Shown here: positions 1 through 10,083 of the stretch, piece after piece
Layout: each line of letters opens with the position of its first letter
Numbering within the stretch: position 1 is the stretch's first letter
NCBI GenBank assembly: GCA_910592005.1
Contig: CAJVPP010003986.1
Coordinates: 1-10,353 of the forward strand
Source of the DNA: Funneliformis mosseae
Lineage: Eukaryota; Glomeromycota; Glomeromycetes; Glomerales; Glomeraceae
Length of the DNA stretch: 10,353 bases
Direction: 5' to 3'
The notes under the pieces: model-generated
Databases searched by the model: none
Told to the model about the DNA's origin: nothing
What the model saw: the letters and a program-made list of their open reading frames with translations, nothing else
Translations under genes and position numbers: made by a program

Positions 1-2744
1 ATTTATTTTTAAAAATTAGTTTTTTATAATAAAAATATAAATAATTATATAATAATTAATAAAATAACTTACTATCTAATTAATTATATATTTTTAAATA
101 AAATTTAATAAATTTAATTATTATAAAAATATAATTATATAAAATAAATTAATAAAATAACTTACCATCTTATTTATTAAATATAAAATTTGGTTAATTT
201 TAATTTATAATAAAAATATAATTAAAATATAATAAATAATAAACATAATTTACTATCTATTTTATTTTTATAAAAAATTAATTAATTTATATTTTAATAA
301 AAAAAAATATTAATAAAAATAACTTACCATCTAAATTATTAAATATTTTTTAATAAAAAATTGTAATTAAATTAATTATATAAAAGAAATAATTAATTAT
401 AAATAATTGGTATTTATATTTACCAACTATTTATTAATAATTATTATTTATATTTTTTATAAGTAAGTTATTATTAAAATTAATTAAAAATATAAAATAA
501 ATAAAATAAAAATTACCATCTAAATAATTAAATATTTTTTTAGATAATAATTTAATAAGTTTAATTTATAATAAAAATATAATAAATACAAATAATCAAT
601 AAATAATTTACCATCTAAATTATTTAAATATTAATTAATTTTAAATTATAATTAAAATAAGAAGATTAATAAAAGTAATTTACCTTCTAAATTATTTAAT
701 TTTTTTTATTAAATAAAAATTAGTTAAACTACTTTATAGTAAATTGTAATAATATAAATTATTAAAAAAATATTTTTATTATCTAAATTATTAATATTTT
801 AATAAAATTTAATTAATATAATAAAAGTAATTAAATATAAATAATTTATAATAATAACTTACATCCTAAAATATAAATTATTAAATATTTTTTTTAAATT
901 AAAAAAATTAAAATCAAATTTAAAATATAACAAATAACTTACCTACTATTATTAATTATTATTTATTTTTATATAAAATATTATTAAATTTAAATTATAA
1001 ATAATTTAAATAATCAATAAAAATAACTTACAATCTTAATTATTAAATAATATTTAATTAAATATTTAAAAGAATAAAAAATTAAATATAAAATAAATAA
1101 TTAAATAACTTACAATCTAAATTATTTAATATATATTAAAATAAATATTTTAATTATATTAATATTATATTAAAAAAATAAAATAGATATAATTTACCAA
1201 CTAATATATTATTAATAATAATTATTATTTAATAAAAAATTTAATTAAATAACTAAATATAAATAATAAAAATAAATAATAAAAATAATTACCAACTAAA
1301 TTATTAAATATATTTCAATACAAAATATTTTTAATTAAAATTTATATTAATTAAATATAAAATAATTAATAAATAATTTACCATCTAATTAATCAAATAT
1401 ATTTATAATAATTTAATTAAGTTTATATTATAAAATAATATAATTAAATTATTATTTTAATTTACCATCTAAATTATTAAATATAAATTTAGTTTACTAA
1501 ATATAGTATTAATATAATTAATTATAAAATAATTTACCATCTAAATTATTAAATATATTTTTTAAATGGTTTTTTATATAATAAGATTTTATTTAATTAA
1601 GTAATTAATAAAAATAACTTACTATCTAAATTATTAATTTTTAAATAAAAAGATTAGTTAATTAATTAATAACTAATTTTTAATTATTAAAACAAAATTA
1701 GTTAATTAATAAAATAACTTACCATCTAAATTATTTTATTTATTTAAACAAAAATATAGTTAAGTTTAAAAAGTATAATTAAATATTACTAATTAATAAA
1801 ATAACTTACAATCTAATTATTAAAATAAAATATTTAGTTTACAGTAAAAGGCATAATTAATATAGATAATTAATAAAATAACTGACCATCTAAATTGTTA
1901 AAATAAAAATTTAGTTTAATCTAATAATTAACATTTAAATAATCAATAAAATAACATACCATCTAAATTTTATTTATTTATTTATTTTTTTATTAAATGA
2001 AAATTTAATTAAATTTAAATTATAATTAAATTAGATAATTAAAACTTACAATCTAAATATTAAATAATTTTTAGATATATTGCTTTACTATAAAAAAGTA
2101 TAATTAATCAATTAAGATACTTACTTTCTTTAATATATTAATAAAATATTTTATAAATTCGTTAATTTTAATGAAAGTAAAAATTTAATAAATTAATAAA
2201 AATTAACTTACGTTCTATAATATTTTAATATGGTAATTAATTATTATTATAAAAATATACTTAAATAAACATGACCAATAAAAATAACTTACTAACTAAA
2301 TTATTGTTAACCATTTAAAAAAAGGATTAATTAAGTTTAATTTACAATATTAAGAATTGAAATAACTTACTCCCTTTAGTGTTATTAATTTTTACATAGA
2401 AAGTATAATTGAATTTAATAATTTTAATTGTAATGTCTTAAAATAAATTAATATATGACTTACAATCTATAGCGTCATTAATCATTATTTTTTTAAAAAA
2501 AAAAAAATAAAAAAATAAAAAAATTTAATTGTTAAAGCCAATTTTTAGAAACATGAAAAATAGATAAATATTCATTACTATTTAATTCTTTTAAAGTAGG
2601 AGCATCAGGAACATCTGAAACTGGCTCTATCAATGATATTATTAAAGTTAGATCTTAGTCTAGTATTTAAATAATTAACGAATTATAATATCGGTTAATG
2701 AATAATAGCTACTATTTGTATTTACCTTCGTCACTATTGTACAT
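1..2744 (-). CDS. Putative gene with an array of 3-nt (single-codon) exons, 3' end outside window
   Basis: I do not recognise this gene. Exon 1 (2744 down to 2726) starts with ATG in the context AACAATG, reads MYNSDE plus one base, and ends at a GTAAAT donor. Exon 2 (2626-2579) follows a CTAAC branch-like site and ATAG acceptor and continues in frame as EPVSDVPDAPTLKELN plus one base, ending at a GTAATG donor. Then follow 29 three-base segments, each set between AG and a donor-like hexamer. Joined in the phase left by exon 2 they read without a stop, beginning NWIKQNYDDYDNDDVV, then DYLGY and KDDVDDND. The product would be acidic, rich in Asp, Asn and Tyr, with no signal peptide or membrane segment. 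Every intron is phase 1. The donor of the unit at 780-782 is lost. The Asp bias may partly follow from splice consensus, since G before GT plus AT after AG spells GAT. The alternative is a non-coding AT-rich repeat array next to a small two-exon gene. Confidence 0.5.
64..2470 (-). repeat. 29-unit array of acceptor-NNN-donor motifs, spacing 72-100 bp
   Basis: On the minus strand each unit has the form (A/T)AG, three bases, then GTAAGT or a close variant, usually followed by TATT. The triplets start at 73, 166, 254, 328, 424, 517, 612, 684, 780, 863, 943, 1032, 1114, 1198, 1293, 1382, 1466, 1538, 1623, 1723, 1810, 1887, 1960, 2050, 2125, 2212, 2293, 2371 and 2464. By hand count the donors are GTAAGT 16, GTAAAT 8, GTAATT 2, GTCAGT 1, GTATGT 1 and lost 1. 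The acceptors are TAG 25 and AAG 4. The triplets are ATG 10, ATT 5, ATA 4, TTG 3 and seven others once each. Mean spacing is about 85 bp and the spacing does not keep a fixed length. Between motifs the DNA is almost pure A/T, and plus-strand C bases fall nearly only inside the motif. The array continues to the left edge. Confidence 0.93.
731..784 (-). other. Array unit with a lost splice donor
   Basis: The unit keeps the TTTAG acceptor and an ATA triplet (780-782), but the next two bases are AT where every other unit has GT. If the unit is skipped, its neighbours join as T plus AA, which makes TAA, a stop. If the triplet is somehow included, the codon is TAT (Tyr) and the frame continues into KDDVDDND. 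A GTAGTT about 47 nt further on could act as a donor, but it would leave the wrong phase for the following units. This is either a loss-of-function change, a natural end of translation, or a base error at 779. Confidence 0.55.
2579..2626 (-). other. Exon 2 of the microexon gene, with a possible alternative 3' end
   Basis: Forty-eight bases encode EPVSDVPDAPTLKELN after joining to exon 1. The composition is protein-like, and GC is clearly higher than in the flanks. The GTAATG at 2578-2573 serves as donor in phase 1. The following intron (2467-2578, 112 nt) contains a long T-rich tract before the ATAG acceptor of the first 3-nt exon. If this intron is retained, the frame continues for 15 more codons (ending ...HVSKNWL) to a TAA at 2534-2532, giving a complete 37-residue protein. 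So exon 2 could be internal or terminal depending on splicing. Confidence 0.5.
2726..2744 (-). other. Exon 1 of the microexon gene
   Basis: Nineteen bases from ATG to the last G before GTAAAT encode MYNSDE plus the first base of a split codon. The split codon is completed as GAG (Glu) by the first two bases of exon 2, which keeps the frame open. The intron (2627-2725, 99 nt) has a GTAAAT donor, a CTAAC sequence about 20 nt before its end and an ATAG acceptor, all normal for a fungal intron. A TTTAG lies just upstream of the ATG (ending at 2750), so a further 5' UTR exon is possible. I see no convincing TATA box at a usual distance. Confidence 0.5.
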
Positions 2745-3245: not shown

Positions 3246-3392
3246 TGGGACCTTTGCAATAGAAAGGGGAAACTTCCGGAAAAATCAATTTTATTTTTAT
3301 GTCAATTATGATTTCAGGTATTTCAGGTCCTAAATATGTTCAGATTAACTTATTTTTTATTTTTCCCAGCACTTTCTATTGCAAAGGTCTCA
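3246..3392. mobile_element. Miniature inverted-repeat element, copy A
   Basis: The element is 147 bp with terminal inverted repeats. The left end begins TGGGACCTTTGCAATAGAAAG. The right end, reverse complemented, begins TGAGACCTTTGCAATAGAAAG, a single difference over about 21 bases. It has no coding capacity; the 63-codon open frame overlapping it is chance. TA precedes the left end, but the right side is followed by AA rather than TA, so only half of a TA target duplication is seen. The interior matches copies B and C. It was probably moved by a Tc1/mariner-like transposase elsewhere in the genome; this is inferred from the size and the TA in copy C. Confidence 0.8.
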
Positions 3393-4042: not shown

Positions 4043-5179
4043 CTAAATGGTCTTTATTAATTAGAAATTAATTTGAAAGGATCGCAAATATAAAATTTAA
4101 GTTAAAATATTTCCAAAAATAAATCAACCACTTAATAATAATAAACCTTGATACCTATACATATTTTATCCTATCCGGTCCGGTTGTTTAATTTGGAGAA
4201 AGTTTAAAGCAATGCTCACAGGGTTGGAAGTGGATATATAAACTTATATACGTACATGTAAAACTTATATATGTCTAAATCCAATACTGTAATGCGCATG
4301 ACATTTATGAGATAGATGCGTTTGCGGGCAAGAATAAGCGGAGTATTTCCTATTCGAGAAAAGTTCCACATTTTTGCTGAATTATTTAGGCCCTCTTCTG
4401 CTGACATGACATAAATTATCATCAGTCTAAACTCAGTAAAGGCAGTCCTTTCTTTTTATAAAAAACGAAACAATAGCATTCTCAGTATTAGAAAAACAAT
4501 GACTTTATTTGAATGTGATAAATTCTTGTTAAAGTGAATATATTAGTATAATATCCATACCTCTGGATATTCATTTTACAAATCAATATTTTGTTTGGTT
4601 ATTATTATCGAATAATTAAAATTACCTCTTTATTTATTTATTTATTATTATTATTATTTTAATAACAAAAAGCATTTTGATTAAATTAACTGATTTTTAA
4701 GGACAATATTTTTCATTAAATTTATAATTCGCGCAAATCAATTTTTATGGATGCGTTGCCAGTAAAACCACATTACGGATCATATGATTTACTATATCTC
4801 ATGATTTGATTTTACTGGAAAGAAACGTTCCCATACGTTATCTTTATTGTAATTTCATATGTAGACAATAAAATGTACTTTTAAGCTTAGCCGATCGCAT
4901 TAGTAAAATAAATAAATAAAATATGTTTTTATTGGTATGTGTAGAATAATAATCTCATTTATATTATCTATTATATAATATTGTCGGAAATGACCTCGCC
5001 ACTAGTAGGTAAAATAGTAAGAATCCATATAGAAGACAAATTAGAATTTTCGAGCATTTATATTGAAAATTATAATCATTTGCGATCGTGATGATTTTAA
5101 TTTATATTAAGACATGTTCATATAACTTTAATATAATCGATTTAAATTACTGCCGAATGGTACTAGTCTAAGTTAATTT
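4043..5179. other. Intergenic stretch with small hairpins and a simple repeat
   Basis: No gene is well supported. A minus-strand frame (4216-4422, open upstream to about 4460) contains SAEEGLNNSAKMWNFSR but matches nothing I know. There is an AATATCC/GGATATT hairpin at 4550-4571 and a TTTA/TTA simple repeat at about 4628-4660. An imperfect inverted repeat (CCAGTAAAACCA at 4759-4770 against TGATTTTACTGG at 4807-4818, 11 of 12 pairing) has the palindrome ATCATATGAT between its arms at 4779-4788. The last could be a tiny element or a fold-back structure. Confidence 0.4.
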
Positions 5180-5370
5180 AACCAGTCAATTAACCGGTTA
5201 AAGATTCTTAGCCGATTATGCAACCTCTACTCTCAAGCATTTCATGCATTATGTGCTGATAAGCATGCTTCATTAAAGTAAAAGAAGCAGAAGAAATTCT
5301 GGGAAGATATAATTCTCTATTAAGGGAATATACTAATGAATGGAGTAAAACTAAACTTTTCTTAAAATAA
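5180..5370 (+). pseudogene. Possible decayed coding fragment with a frameshift, family unknown
   Basis: Two protein-like pieces sit head to tail in different frames. From 5180 one frame reads LSRLCNLYSQAFHALCADKH and on through ASLK. At about 5275-5280 the protein-like reading passes to a second frame, which gives VKEAEEILGRYNSLL and then REYTNEWSKTKLFLK before TAA at 5368-5370. The second piece is charged and helix-forming and could be the end of a coiled coil. No start codon or upstream exon is evident. One indel would join the two. I cannot name the family, and chance open frames are not excluded. Confidence 0.33.
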
Positions 5371-5630
5371 GGACGATAATTTTATCAAAAACGCAATTTT
5401 GAGTAATATTGAGTGTAGATCATGTATTTAAATGATCTTCTGAATTATGTAGATTGTAAATTTTTTTGTCAAAGAATATTATGAAAGAAAATTAAGGTTA
5501 TTTTTAGAACTAAATATTTTATTGAAAAATATATAACAGCGTTTATTGCCTTATCGAATTCAATTTAATTAACCTTGACTTTTTTAGCTTACAAAAAAAG
5601 TGACTGTTTTAAGGTCAAATATAAAATAAA

Positions 5631-5755
5631 TGGGCCTTTGCAATAGAAAGGGGAAATTGCTGAATTAATTAAAAAATGAGTTAATTCTAAATCTAAACAT
5701 ATTTTGGCCTAAATTCATATTGAAAATTAAAATTTTCCCCTTTCTATTTATTTGA
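5631..5755. mobile_element. Miniature inverted-repeat element, copy B (degenerate)
   Basis: The left end TGGGCCTTTGCAATAGAAAG matches copy A apart from a missing A. The right end keeps CCCCTTTCTATT, but its outer part has diverged, so the exact boundary is uncertain. The interior is in the opposite orientation to copy A: its reverse complement contains AAAATATGTTTAGATT where copy A has TAAATATGTTCAGATT. It lies about 120 bp upstream of the BTB gene start and could lie in that promoter. Confidence 0.65.
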
Positions 5756-6132
5756 AAGTCAAGATCAGCATGTGATTGCACAGTAATTTAAATAACTAAC
5801 CTTAAATATTCATCCCGATTTTGATCAACTACTGTAAATAAGAATTTCGGCAACAAAACCCATTAATCTACTTGAAATATGTCTTCAAAATTTTTTTCGA
5901 AGTTAAATCAAAGTTACATTGAATTATTGGAAGATGATAAATATTATGATGTTACGGTGGAAGTTGGTGAAGATCCAGATGTAAAAATATTTCGTGCGCA
6001 TATGAATATTTTATGTTTCCGTTCTCCGTATTTACGACGAATTTTGGCTTCGAATAAAAAAAATCATAATGATTCCTTGGTTCATTTGAGGTTGCCAAAT
6101 ATATCTCCGAATACCTTTCAAATTATTTTAAA

Positions 6133-6203
6133 GTATGTGTGAATTAACTAAGCATCGATATGTAACATGTATATTAATATTTTTAAAATATTTCAAAACC
6201 TAG
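6133..6203 (+). other. Intron in the BTB-BACK-TLDc gene, with two possible donors
   Basis: A GTATGT donor at 6133, a TTAACTAAG branch-like site at 6143-6151 and a CCTAG acceptor ending at 6203 define a 71-nt intron. It is placed in the conserved IILKYIYGG segment, between the first two bases and the third base of the Lys codon. With this donor the frame breaks a few codons later. A weaker donor, GTGTGA at 6137, would leave exon 1 ending in LKY in phase 0 and join to IYLCGVLELKGQDV without a break. So the reading frame here depends on which donor is used. GTATGT is the better fungal donor. Confidence 0.65.
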
Positions 6204-6790
6204 ATATATTTATGTGGTGTTCTTGAGCTTAAAGGGCAAGACGTTTCAGAAATTTTTAAAGTTTTGATAGCAGCTGATAAGCTTTTTCTTCAAGAACTAG
6301 TTGATTATTTACAAAAATATTTAATTCAAAATAAATCTGAATGGATAGAGCAACATTTTGAATTTACTCATAAAACAAGTTTCCTTTCAAGTAAATTAAT
6401 AGAGCTTCAACGATATTGTACGGACATAATGGCTAAAGAACCTGAAAAAATATTTGTATCACTTGATTTTACTTCACTCTCTGAAAAATCTTTAATCACA
6501 TTCATTAAAAGAGACGATTTACAAATGAGAGAAGTGGAAGTTTGGAAACATGTATTGAGATGGGGTCTTGAACGAAATCCAACCCTTCTTTCAGATCCCG
6601 CAACTTGGAAAAATGATGATTTCAAAGCGATGAAAAACACTTTAAAACGATGTTTACCTAAAATTAGATTTTTTAGTTTTTCGTCCAAGCAATTCTCTCA
6701 AAACGTACGACCATATAAAGACCTGTTAGATCACCGACTATATGAGCAATTGTTAAATTCTTACTTGGATTCTGATAGTAACCAACCGAG

Positions 6791-7378
6791 GATATTTTAC
6801 TTCCTAGAAAAATTAAAATTGAAACGATCATGGATACAAAATTCGTTAATTTAAATATTGTTTTAACAATTTCAAGATGGATTGATAAAACGGTTGATAA
6901 TAGTAATTTTTCTCATTTACGAGAATTATAAGTACCATATAAATTTATATTATTGTTGAGAGGGAGTCGTGATGGTTTTACTCCCAAAAAATTTCATGAA
7001 TTATGTAATGATAAACCTAATACCGTTGTATTTATTAAAGTAAAAGGGACTGAAGAAATTATTGGTGGATATAATCCTATAACATGGGAATCTTATAAAT
7101 ATATATTGGGTTGGGGTCAAACTAAGGATAGTTTTGTATTTTCTTTTAGAAAAATGGATAACCTATCTGAGGATGCGATTTTGAGTAACGTTAAGAATAT
7201 AGATAAGGCATTGCTTTTTAATAGTTGCAGTGGACCTCGTTTTGGAGATTCGGATCTTATCATGTGTTCATCAAATAGAACAGCAGATTACCATCAAATT
7301 TGTTGCAAAAAGAGTTATTATGAAAAAAAGATAAGGGATACCGAAGATTATGAAGTATTTCAAATAATAAAGAGATAA
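6791..7378 (+). pseudogene. TLDc-domain half of the disrupted gene
   Basis: This part is in frame 2 relative to the window, while the BTB-BACK exon ends in another frame (running on to a TAA at 6852-6854). It begins DILLPRKIKIETIMD and continues NLNIVLTISRWIDKTVDN and FSHLREL to the TAA at 6929. After that it is uninterrupted from VPYKFILLLRGSRDG through PNTVVFIKVKGTEEIIGGYN and ILGWGQTKDSFVFSF to EDYEVFQIIKR and a normal TAA. The conserved order of family motifs on both sides of the stop shows it was one domain. TLDc domains in animals are linked to oxidative-stress resistance and V-ATPase binding; nothing here shows that role. The absence of other stops suggests that the damage is recent. 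Confidence 0.8.
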
Positions 7379-8008
7379 ATTATGAAGTATACATATTAGT
7401 GCAACAAATTGGTTTTCGCAAAATGTTGTTTCATTTATATGAATTTTGTTGAACTTACAGACAGATGTTCATTTACTATTAAATTCTAAGTTACAAGGCA
7501 TCATAATTCATATAATCCGAACAAGATTTTAATAGCAATCCTTCCAAAATATCGATCTATACTTTATTGGATCTATTTGAATCAAATTTTCCGGGAAAGT
7601 ATAAGTATGACTAATATATTTTACTAATGTGCTAAGTAAATACAAGAACACCGAGCAATATATAAATAGGTAACAAGAAATCGGCACACATTTACTAATA
7701 GCTCTACGCATATCTTCAGGGCCGGCACTATGTAATGCTGATGGGAATTATCCAAAAAAGGAAATGATTCACATGAATTTTGGCTCATTCTACGCAATAT
7801 CTCTATATTGTTACATGTATTGTTCGGGCTCCTTTCATAAATTAAATGGACTTAATTACTTATTTTTACAAAACTTCAACTACAAAATGATAATCATTCC
7901 TTTTAAATAATAAAGTTAAACTTATTTCATGATTTACATATAAGCCATCCACTGGTGTGAATATCTATCCTTCCGGTGATACTGTTCTAAGAACGAAAAA
8001 GGTTTAAG
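7379..8008. other. Downstream stretch with overlapping open frames, no supported gene
   Basis: Open frames of about 75 codons exist on both strands around 7624-7910. The minus frame (7851-7624) contains EILRRMSQNSCESFPFLD and NSHQHYIVPALKICVEL. An overlapping minus frame reads SALHSAGPEDMRRAISKC. A plus frame contains SSGPALCNADGNYPKKE. These contradict each other, none has a good start, and I cannot choose one. A decayed minus-strand gene is possible but unproven. Confidence 0.25.
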
Positions 8009-8575
8009 ACTCGAAGAGCTTTCGAGTTAAGAATTGAAATTAAATCGAATCAAGCAGACTCGAGTTCATACTGATTTGCTGCGGTATTACTTATAATCTT
8101 GACATTATTTTCTAATGTAAAGTCTTACGTATTAAAATTAAATATATATTCGTAATTTAATTTTATGATGTATTTTAGGTGAAAACAATTTTGAAAATGT
8201 TTTATAATTTATAAAAAAATAATATTAAACATAACATGACTGGGAATAACAATATATTACACAAAGGTTAATAATCGATCATCCTTAGCTAAAAGTACCG
8301 CAACATATTAAATGAAAAGTTTCACGTTCCATTATTTAGAATTATTAAAAAAAAATTATTTATCAATTCTAATCGCACAAGCCATTTAGCATATCATGAT
8401 TATTAAATGAGTTAATGATAACAAAAGTTTATAAGATAATTAACTACGCTAAAGAATCATCAGCTTAGATACATTCTTTGTAAATTAATTTTACTTAGCT
8501 TTAAATCTCAATAGTTAACAAGTCGAATTACTCGAATCAGATGTAACTCGAGTAAGAAAATCTAGAGTTACTACT
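8009..8575. repeat. Cluster of ACTCGA-type motifs with a palindrome
   Basis: ACTCGAA at 8009-8015 and TTCGAGT at 8021-8027 are exact inverted repeats around GAGCT. Related GACTCGAGTT, TACTCGAATC and AACTCGAGTA motifs recur near 8058-8068 and 8530-8555. These may be fragments of an inverted-repeat element or scattered copies of a low-complexity motif. No boundaries can be set, and the roughly 450 bp between the groups contain nothing I recognise. Confidence 0.4.
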
Positions 8576-9381: not shown

Positions 9382-9523
9382 TGAGACCTTTGCGGGGGGA
9401 AACTGCTGGAAAAAATCAATTTTACTTTTATTTACCAAATATGATTTTTAGGTCAGATTTTAGCTTTAAAATCTTTTTTTTTTATTTTTCCGCCGTTTCC
9501 CCTTTTCTATTGCAAAGGTCCCA
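9382..9523. mobile_element. Miniature inverted-repeat element, copy C, flanked by TA
   Basis: The element is 142 bp. It begins TGAGACCTTTGC and ends with a right terminus whose reverse complement is TGGGACCTTTGCAATAGAAA. The dinucleotide TA lies directly outside both ends (9380-9381 and 9524-9525), which fits a Tc1/mariner-type TA target duplication. The left terminus has lost AATAGAAA and carries a run of G instead. The interior shares AAAAATCAATTTTA and a following ATATGATTT with copy A in the same orientation. It has no coding capacity. Confidence 0.82.
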
Positions 9524-10083
9524 TATTGAATAAATTTTTTTATAAAAAAAAAAAATTTGATCAAGGAAACGTGGGAAAATAACCTTTATATAAAAGATTG
9601 TAAAATGCATAATGACGTAAGTTCTACATGAAATACGCCACGTGAAATCTCCTTAAAAAATAAACATTTAACCAAGTTTCAAACGAAGAGTAAAATTTTT
9701 AATGTTAGCTTTTTAGAACGCACGGAATGTTTCTCATGATAAGAATTGTCTCCGGAAATATTAATTCAAGCTGGCTCGAACCGTCATATAATTATTGTAA
9801 AATTTTCCCTACATGTGTAGCTTTAATTTTAATTTTAATAAGGATCAAAGATGTTAATAAGCACTTTAAAATAAATATTAAATAACATTATATCACAATT
9901 TAAGAAAAAGCAGCATTACCTATTTTTTTTTATAAAACACGCAAAATTTTACACGTGATTTTCAATGTATTGATTGGCATGTGGTGTAACAAAAAAAGTA
10001 TACAATAAATCCTTCCTTTCAAAACCATAAATTATTTAACGGAGAATTACCTGAGTTAACTTATTATATAATACAAAATTTAA
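9524..10083. other. Intergenic stretch with one short open frame
   Basis: The only frame of note is a 52-codon plus-strand ATG-to-TAA frame at 9727-9885 that contains SGNINSSWLEPSYNYCKIF and then a hydrophobic run. It is protein-like in its first half but has no other support. Nothing else is recognised. Confidence 0.35.

Follow-up and report, generated by a model that had tools for sequence, protein, structure and literature searches.

Runs of predicted three-nucleotide exons in kinase-family genes of the fungus Funneliformis mosseae

We analysed a stretch of the Funneliformis mosseae genome (82 Mb in 4154 contigs) comprising bases 1-10353 of contig C3986, hereafter the window, in which 29 tandem units on the minus strand carry triplets of bases (between 73 and 2466) flanked by AG and, in all but one unit, GT. 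We consider it very likely that this array is part of a fungal kinase gene in which exons of 3 nucleotides (nt) would be spliced in order and translated in phase 1, so that each exon would complete one codon with two bases and open the following codon with its third. A sequence-only reading of the window had proposed a gene made of single-codon exons, with exactly three bases in 28 of 29 units. The array was confirmed at that place: 27 of the 29 units were recovered by a splice-site parser in which exon length was left free, the TTG unit at 424-426 was seen in the sequence below the parser cut-off, and AG and GT are separated by exactly three bases in 28/29 units. The term "single-codon" fits the size of the exons and not their content, as they appear to be in phase 1 and to span two codons, and the array is better described as one section of a kinase-family gene than as a whole gene. 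Neighbouring units lie 72-100 bp apart, as had been reported, with the larger parser steps (179 and 189 bp) each spanning one unit which the parser missed, and the variant donors GTAAAT, GTAATT, GTATGT and GTCAGT are all present in the array. Plus-strand C was said to be nearly confined to the motif; we found that it is enriched there (93/128 within a motif covering 583/2407 bases) without being confined to it.

The motif recurs across the genome with a strict exon length. Searching the genome for a core of 19 bases, allowing at most two mismatches, gave 470 matches, compared to 52 in a reversed control, and TTAG-NNN-GTAAGTTATT was found 369 times, compared to 4 times in the reversed control. 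Gaps of 0-2 bases between TTAG and GTAAGTTATT were found 24 times (control 18) and gaps of 4-30 bases, pooled, 155 times (control 129). The first 100 of the 369 exact places, counted by hand, were spread over 33 contigs; no match to the motif was found in the viral contigs scanned. We fetched 37 loci plus eight short ones, of which 29 of the 37 were retained as arrays and, together with the window, gave 30 parsed loci. Locus L023 was excluded before parsing (fewer than 5 motif hits), while L015, L027, L040 and the loci fetched for comparison, L042-L045, did not reach the threshold for an array. The parser scored donor and acceptor separately and allowed any exon length from 0 to 60 nt, and 618 of the 651 exons which it called were 3 nt long; in reversed arrays the same parser called 37 exons, one of them of 3 nt. 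When the 30 array loci were anchored on AAGTTATT alone, a GT preceded 336 of 351 anchors and an AG was present exactly three bases upstream of that GT in 324 of these 336. Arrays contain up to ~40 three-base exons predicted in a row. A further array, with several AG-NNN-GTAAGTTATT units and C-rich triplets (CCC, CTC, TTC, ACC), was observed on the plus strand of contig C1253 at about 4527-8273, and in the L040 array the parser also called longer exons (21 and 18 nt) among those of 3 nt, which perhaps represents an older or intermediate state.

We used the order of the triplets as a test of reading frame. Phase was fixed by the exons preceding the array, which in three loci (the window, L013 and L031) can be followed from a start codon and end in phase 1, a phase-1 codon being the last base of one triplet and the first two bases of the next. 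A junction was counted only where two 3-nt exons were neighbours and lay no more than 130 nt from each other. Phase-1 stops were found at 2 of 515 such junctions (81 runs), against 22.2 ± 3.7 after shuffling within runs; none of 5000 shuffles had 2 or fewer, and the minimum in 50,000 shuffles was 7. This depletion, approximately elevenfold, was seen between neighbours only and supports the earlier suggestion that these are genuine runs of 3-nt exons. At a lag of two units there were 21 stops (18.8 expected), at lags of three, four and five there were 15, 15 and 12 (16.2, 14.0 and 12.5 expected) and at a lag of six there were 6 (10.8 expected), while reversing the adjacency of neighbouring triplets gave 27. 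The depletion was found in both fetch batches (2 vs 11.7 in the first, 0 vs 10.4 in the later one), when each distinct triplet pair was counted once (2 vs 14.8) and when the first six units of each locus were omitted (2 stops in 377 junctions vs 15.3). Phase-1 TAA was absent where 14 were expected, TGA occurred 2 times where 6 were expected, and triplets starting with AA never followed a T (0/69). It should be noted that the sense codons GGG, AGG and GTG are also below expectation, due to the fact that GG-triplets mostly follow a T, making TGG. Of the two remaining stops, one is in L010, where the kinase exon also contains stops, and the other is in L025, whose contig has no kinase match among the matches listed. 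In phase 2 there were 163 stops against 142.5 after shuffling, and in phase 0 stops made up 12 of 596 triplets, against about 19 from base frequencies, which is mostly a difference in TAA. A reading of each triplet as a whole codon, yielding a Met/Ile-rich peptide, was set aside on account of these 12 phase-0 stops and of the upstream exons ending in phase 1. As the order of the triplets is under frame constraint, the triplets would be needed in the translated mRNA.

The peptide which is predicted across the joined codons is conserved at the start of the arrays. Seventeen loci have an uninterrupted first block starting at a GGA unit, the GGA being present by selection. Within these the AAA unit, three past the GGA, is invariant, and introns at the same position are 71-76% identical. 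Joining the codons gives W-I-x-[EQK]-N in all of these loci but L036, which has WNDEN (16/17 loci conserved); the Ile is written as A|TT or A|TC. The W is supplied by the unit before GGA, which ends in T in 17/17 loci as read from the sequence; this unit was parsed beside GGA in seven loci (in L018 it forms the last part of a longer called exon), is a candidate in eight more, and is seen in the remaining two as ATT (L013) and AAT (L019). Among the 13 other loci, eight have no GGA within the first six parsed exons (L021 regains it at a lower cut-off), and five have a first block with gaps or other exon lengths, one of which, L026, reads WTDLD. Over the arrays as a whole, D, N and Y make up 243 of the 515 codons.

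Gene models connect the arrays to a protein kinase. The L013 model runs from an exon 1 with a start codon through four short exons and an uninterrupted series of 34 3-nt exons to two kinase exons (predicted junction string DWIEQNESWDSNYY...), is open over 41 exons and 536 codons, and has a protein kinase domain at residues 177-447 (Pfam PF07714, E 6.8e-35). Of its 34 3-nt exons, which represent 34 of 536 codon-equivalents and so are not most of the coding region, 32 were called by the parser once its cut-off was lowered; the remaining two (an ATG followed by GTGGGT, and the final one, TAA, followed by GTATTA) were positioned manually, as were the ordinary exons. The L031 model has a start codon, three short exons and 13 3-nt exons, or 14 if a final TAA unit is counted, and is open through the first kinase exon (predicted junction string DWIEENSTLLEFW...), and in L021 25 consecutive 3-nt exons join the kinase exon without a stop. 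An exon akin to window exon 2 (PTLEELN-like) precedes the array in a number of other loci. At least 20 of the 30 parsed loci share a contig with a match to one kinase exon, among the matches listed; 12 parsed loci of the second batch were mainly picked for such a match and 11 of them have one, so that the fairer rate is 9/18, obtained from the window together with the motif-selected loci. Two more of these 18, L016 and L024, were observed to have arrays upstream of a second kinase type, with open frames containing GGFGSIMKATW and ILHRDL. In four kinase relatives (L042-L045) the stretch that was fetched contained no AG-NNN-GTAA[AG] site. A search with the whole L013 protein gave many glomeromycotan kinases; the named proteins within the best 120 matches are from Diversispora, Rhizophagus, Glomus, Gigaspora and Funneliformis, which points to a likely arbuscular mycorrhizal fungus. 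Such exons would probably be overlooked by standard annotation: the two named public relatives of highest identity (60 and 66%), both from Funneliformis geosporum, start within the kinase domain. No spliced array peptide was seen in 13 public relative sequences read by eye. Separately, the frames upstream of the array in L009 (contig C269, oriented positions about 1217-1653) repeat K-[TI]-YLPE, unlike the other loci read, and this contig has no kinase match among the matches listed.

The introns between the triplets are mostly 70-109 nt long (521/621), with GTAAGTTATT-type donors and TAG acceptors. A branch-like ACTAA motif was found in 234 of 550 introns, compared to 57 when reversed, mostly 15-45 nt before the exon. 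Splicing would probably proceed by intron definition, because these short introns look complete, and introns would be removed stepwise, as two spliceosomes cannot occupy a 3-nt exon together. Retention of an intron would give an in-phase stop in 545 of 563 cases, which means that nearly every splicing event matters.

Other explanations of the arrays were weighed against these results. An AT-rich minisatellite, with a chance splice-like core and units which are never spliced, could account for the fact that Tandem Repeats Finder calls the window array tandem repeats and that interiors are more alike within arrays (0.70) than when shuffled (0.62). We give this a close to negligible probability, since the loss of stops is phase-specific, limited to neighbours and equal in two fetch batches, the peptide is conserved across junctions, and the triplets are about as variable as random ones while AG and GT persist. 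It is also very improbable that the array is one long intron removed in steps, with the units as ratchet points and the triplets as a by-product. The AG-NNN-GT unit resembles a recursive splice site, stepwise removal is possible and units of 3 nt are frame-neutral; however, a recursive-splicing ratchet point is AG|GT with no bases between, while here three bases stay between AG and GT and their frame-constrained order implies that they are needed in the translated mRNA. A third possibility is that differing subsets of the 3-nt exons are included in each mRNA, producing hypervariability by alternative splicing as in schistosome micro-exon genes. The frame survives the skipping of any single exon, with a stop arising in just 20 of 432 cases, and exon skipping would thus be tolerated. 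Selected skipping predicts depletion of stops at lags 2-5, where none was found (the lag-6 count of 6 vs 10.8 is the exception to the pattern), so that skipping is apparently not what the order was selected for; the constraint fits inclusion of every unit in order, and we regard the use of subsets as distinctly unlikely.

Insertion in the manner of introner-like elements, whereby copies of one intron cut existing coding sequence into triplets, is an unlikely explanation of the arrays. A typed consensus-like intron has at least 422 genome matches, of 91-100% identity and on many contigs among the matches listed, and it is matched at 85% identity or more by 132 of the 621 parsed introns, which come from 20 of the 30 loci. 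Within arrays, the triplets flanking intron pairs of 85-90% identity mismatch at 59% of bases upstream and 57% downstream, and those flanking pairs of 90-95% identity at 57 and 51%, against 61% for random triplets, as this explanation would expect. It is also favoured by the similarity of intron interiors, which does not fall with unit distance (0.703 for neighbours and 0.692 for units eight apart, compared to 0.67 between arrays and 0.62 shuffled); this flatness is contrary to simple unit-by-unit duplication and is thus a point against our own account in its simplest form. Random insertion, however, predicts exons of 6, 9 and 12 nt, of which there was one each, vs 618 of 3 nt, and at intron identities of at least 95% (13 pairs) the downstream triplets agree better (33% mismatch, compared to 64% upstream). 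On contig C1950 the full-length neighbouring introns at 845-940, 944-1039, 1043-1137 and 1141-1235 lie three bases apart, and all 70 of 70 neighbouring pairs of near-copy introns are separated by 3 nt, of 30 kinds. The near absence of 6-, 9- and 12-nt exons favours amplification of a module over random insertion of introns, and the lack of a fall in similarity with distance favours homogenisation or block copying over duplication one unit at a time. The intron thus appears to be homogenised or freshly copied, with the triplets following another rule. Under this amplification reading the arrays would grow by multiplying a module of one 3-nt exon and its intron, adding one codon-equivalent per copy, with introns being copied or homogenised and triplets diverging fast. 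The result would be a D/N/Y-rich linker which differs in length between paralogues and precedes a Cys-rich motif and the kinase domain; we would guess that it is a hypervariable region whose length also differs across a large family of kinases.

A number of observations weigh against the reading of the arrays as serially spliced parts of kinase genes. The seeds used to train the splice matrices had a 3-nt gap, for which the motif-gap counts and the anchoring on AAGTTATT serve as unseeded checks, and 33 of the 651 parsed exons are not 3 nt long (six of 2 nt, other lengths at most 3 times each). The first unit is 4 nt long in L011, and in L025 the first unit has the donor TT. Junctions spanning a missing unit had 3 stops in 42. 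Two AGs precede the kinase exon, the second lying 7 bases downstream in 4 of the 5 loci read; the second AG gives phase 1 in 5/5 loci, with the kinase exon then starting x|GA ATT TGT, and the first gives phase 0 in 4/5 and, by eye, another phase with a TAA in L011, but the second was chosen for giving phase 1 and the downstream phase is thus no independent proof. Stops are present inside the kinase match in 6 of 20 loci (L010, L012, L014, L018, L019 and L038), and the L021 copy has a TAG further inside the kinase, from which it appears that some arrays lie in pseudogenes. The predicted N-terminal 112 residues (1-112) of the L013 protein match no public protein at E ≤ 10. The window array by itself has too few units for the stop test to be informative (0 stops, 0.8 expected), and its unit at 780-782 has no GT donor; if this unit is skipped, GAT joins AAG and reads TAA.

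An exon of 3 nt holds about the smallest content which can be added without a shift of frame, and isolated exons of 1 to 3 nt continue to be published as oddities. If runs of 20 or more across a gene family are real, the spliceosome would handle such exons serially as routine, probably by stepwise intron definition, and the arrays would offer many natural substrates for testing the serial splicing of tiny exons as well as a concrete route for a protein to grow one residue at a time via intron copying. Several known systems share part of this architecture, as far as the accessible text of the respective papers describes them. Schistosome micro-exon genes (MEGs) contain strings of very small, symmetrical, frame-neutral exons (PMC4350168). 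Very small symmetrical exons are a feature shared with our arrays; however, micro-exons are described as most of the coding region of MEGs, whereas here the array accounts for little of a kinase gene, its exons are nearly all 3 nt long and many of its introns are near-copies. Aphid bicycle and megacycle genes have many microexons per gene, nearly all of one phase and more than 100 in megacycle (PMC9168663), in another organism and another type of protein, and the description as available mentions neither uniform 3-nt exons nor tandem near-copy introns. Ultra-small single exons of 1 nt are described in Arabidopsis APC11 and Fusarium CYP621A (PMC4674806, PMC12940212), indicating that spliceosomes can handle such exons, with one per gene as opposed to the runs of ten or more found here. 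For the APC11 exon, removal of introns one after another was proposed (PMC4674806), and a similar order of events is likely for our arrays by analogy. Introner-like elements are near-identical introns which have multiplied in fungal genomes, and stwintrons are nested introns which are spliced consecutively (PMC4457414, PMC9860276, PMC8469720, PMC9024468). Highly similar intron copies at many genome sites are common to introner-like elements and our arrays, but in the accounts available those introns are separate, in many genes, or nested, whereas here they are tandem copies with 3-nt spacers. A functional microexon which acts as a switch is described in a filamentous fungus, in Trichoderma Xlr2 (PMC11121469), this being one microexon rather than a run. 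Among the papers listed on microexons in fungi, Glomeromycotina and Rhizophagus, on consecutive, single-codon or short exons, on micro-exon genes, on Funneliformis introns and on intron gain, a scope within which most subscription papers do not fall, no title or opening of an abstract described runs of 3-nt exons. On balance we consider it probable that the architecture is new: a satellite-like tandem intron family in which each copy carries a 3-nt phase-1 exon adding one codon-equivalent, with introns copied or homogenised and triplets diversifying faster than the surrounding introns, giving hypervariable kinase linkers which need up to about 40 consecutive splicings.

In the window, all on the minus strand, the gene is predicted to begin with exon 1 (ATGTACAATAGTGACGAAG, 2726..2744), which codes for MYNSDE, ends in phase 1 and is directly followed by the donor GTAAATAC. 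It joins in frame to predicted exon 2 (EPVSDVPDAPTLKELN, 2579..2626), which is in phase 1 at both ends and has the donor GTAATGAA. Intron 2 (112 nt, 2467..2578, GTAATG...CTATAG) contains an in-frame TAA near 2532, which the sequence-only reading had treated as a problem; with the exon 2 donor at 2578, this TAA sits within the intron and would be removed. The array of 3-nt exons and short introns follows (73..2466), with 28 exons having both AG and GT. Giving the highest plus-strand base of each, the first seven are 2466 ATT, 2373 GGA, 2295 TTA, 2214 AAC, 2127 AAA, 2052 ATT and 1962 ATG; the next seven are 1889 ATG, 1812 ATT, 1725 ATG, 1625 ATA, 1540 ATG, 1468 ATG and 1384 ATG; these are followed by 1295 TTG, 1200 TTG, 1116 ATT, 1034 ATT, 945 TAG, 865 GAT and 686 AAG; and the last seven are 614 ATG, 519 ATG, 426 TTG, 330 ATG, 256 ATA, 168 ATG and 75 ATA. 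The first block of six (ATT-GGA-TTA-AAC-AAA-ATT, 2050..2466) together with the last base of exon 2 gives N W I K Q N. The unit without a GT (780..782, coordinates counted from the printed intron) has the acceptor TTTAG, the triplet ATA and the donor ATAAAA; because this donor has lost its GT and skipping makes a TAA, the window copy may be damaged or non-working. The last intron (1..72) starts with GTAAGTTATT and is truncated by the contig start. As the array runs off the contig at base 1, the downstream kinase exons, if any, are beyond it, and we infer from sister loci that the window array would lead to a kinase.

Just upstream of predicted exon 1, at 2820-2877, there is an inverted repeat of 26 bp (88% complementary, 6-bp loop). 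Elsewhere in the window, open frames on the plus strand (5879-7378) match, in order, BTB (5879-6142), BACK (6264-6854) and TLDc (6953-7378), and this copy may be broken. Three similar stretches, at 3246-3392, about 5632-5755 and 9384-9528, start near CCTTTGC and have inverted ends, which were identified by repeat search in the first stretch (3246-3392) and by eye in the other two; in sequence they resemble a small inverted-repeat transposon.

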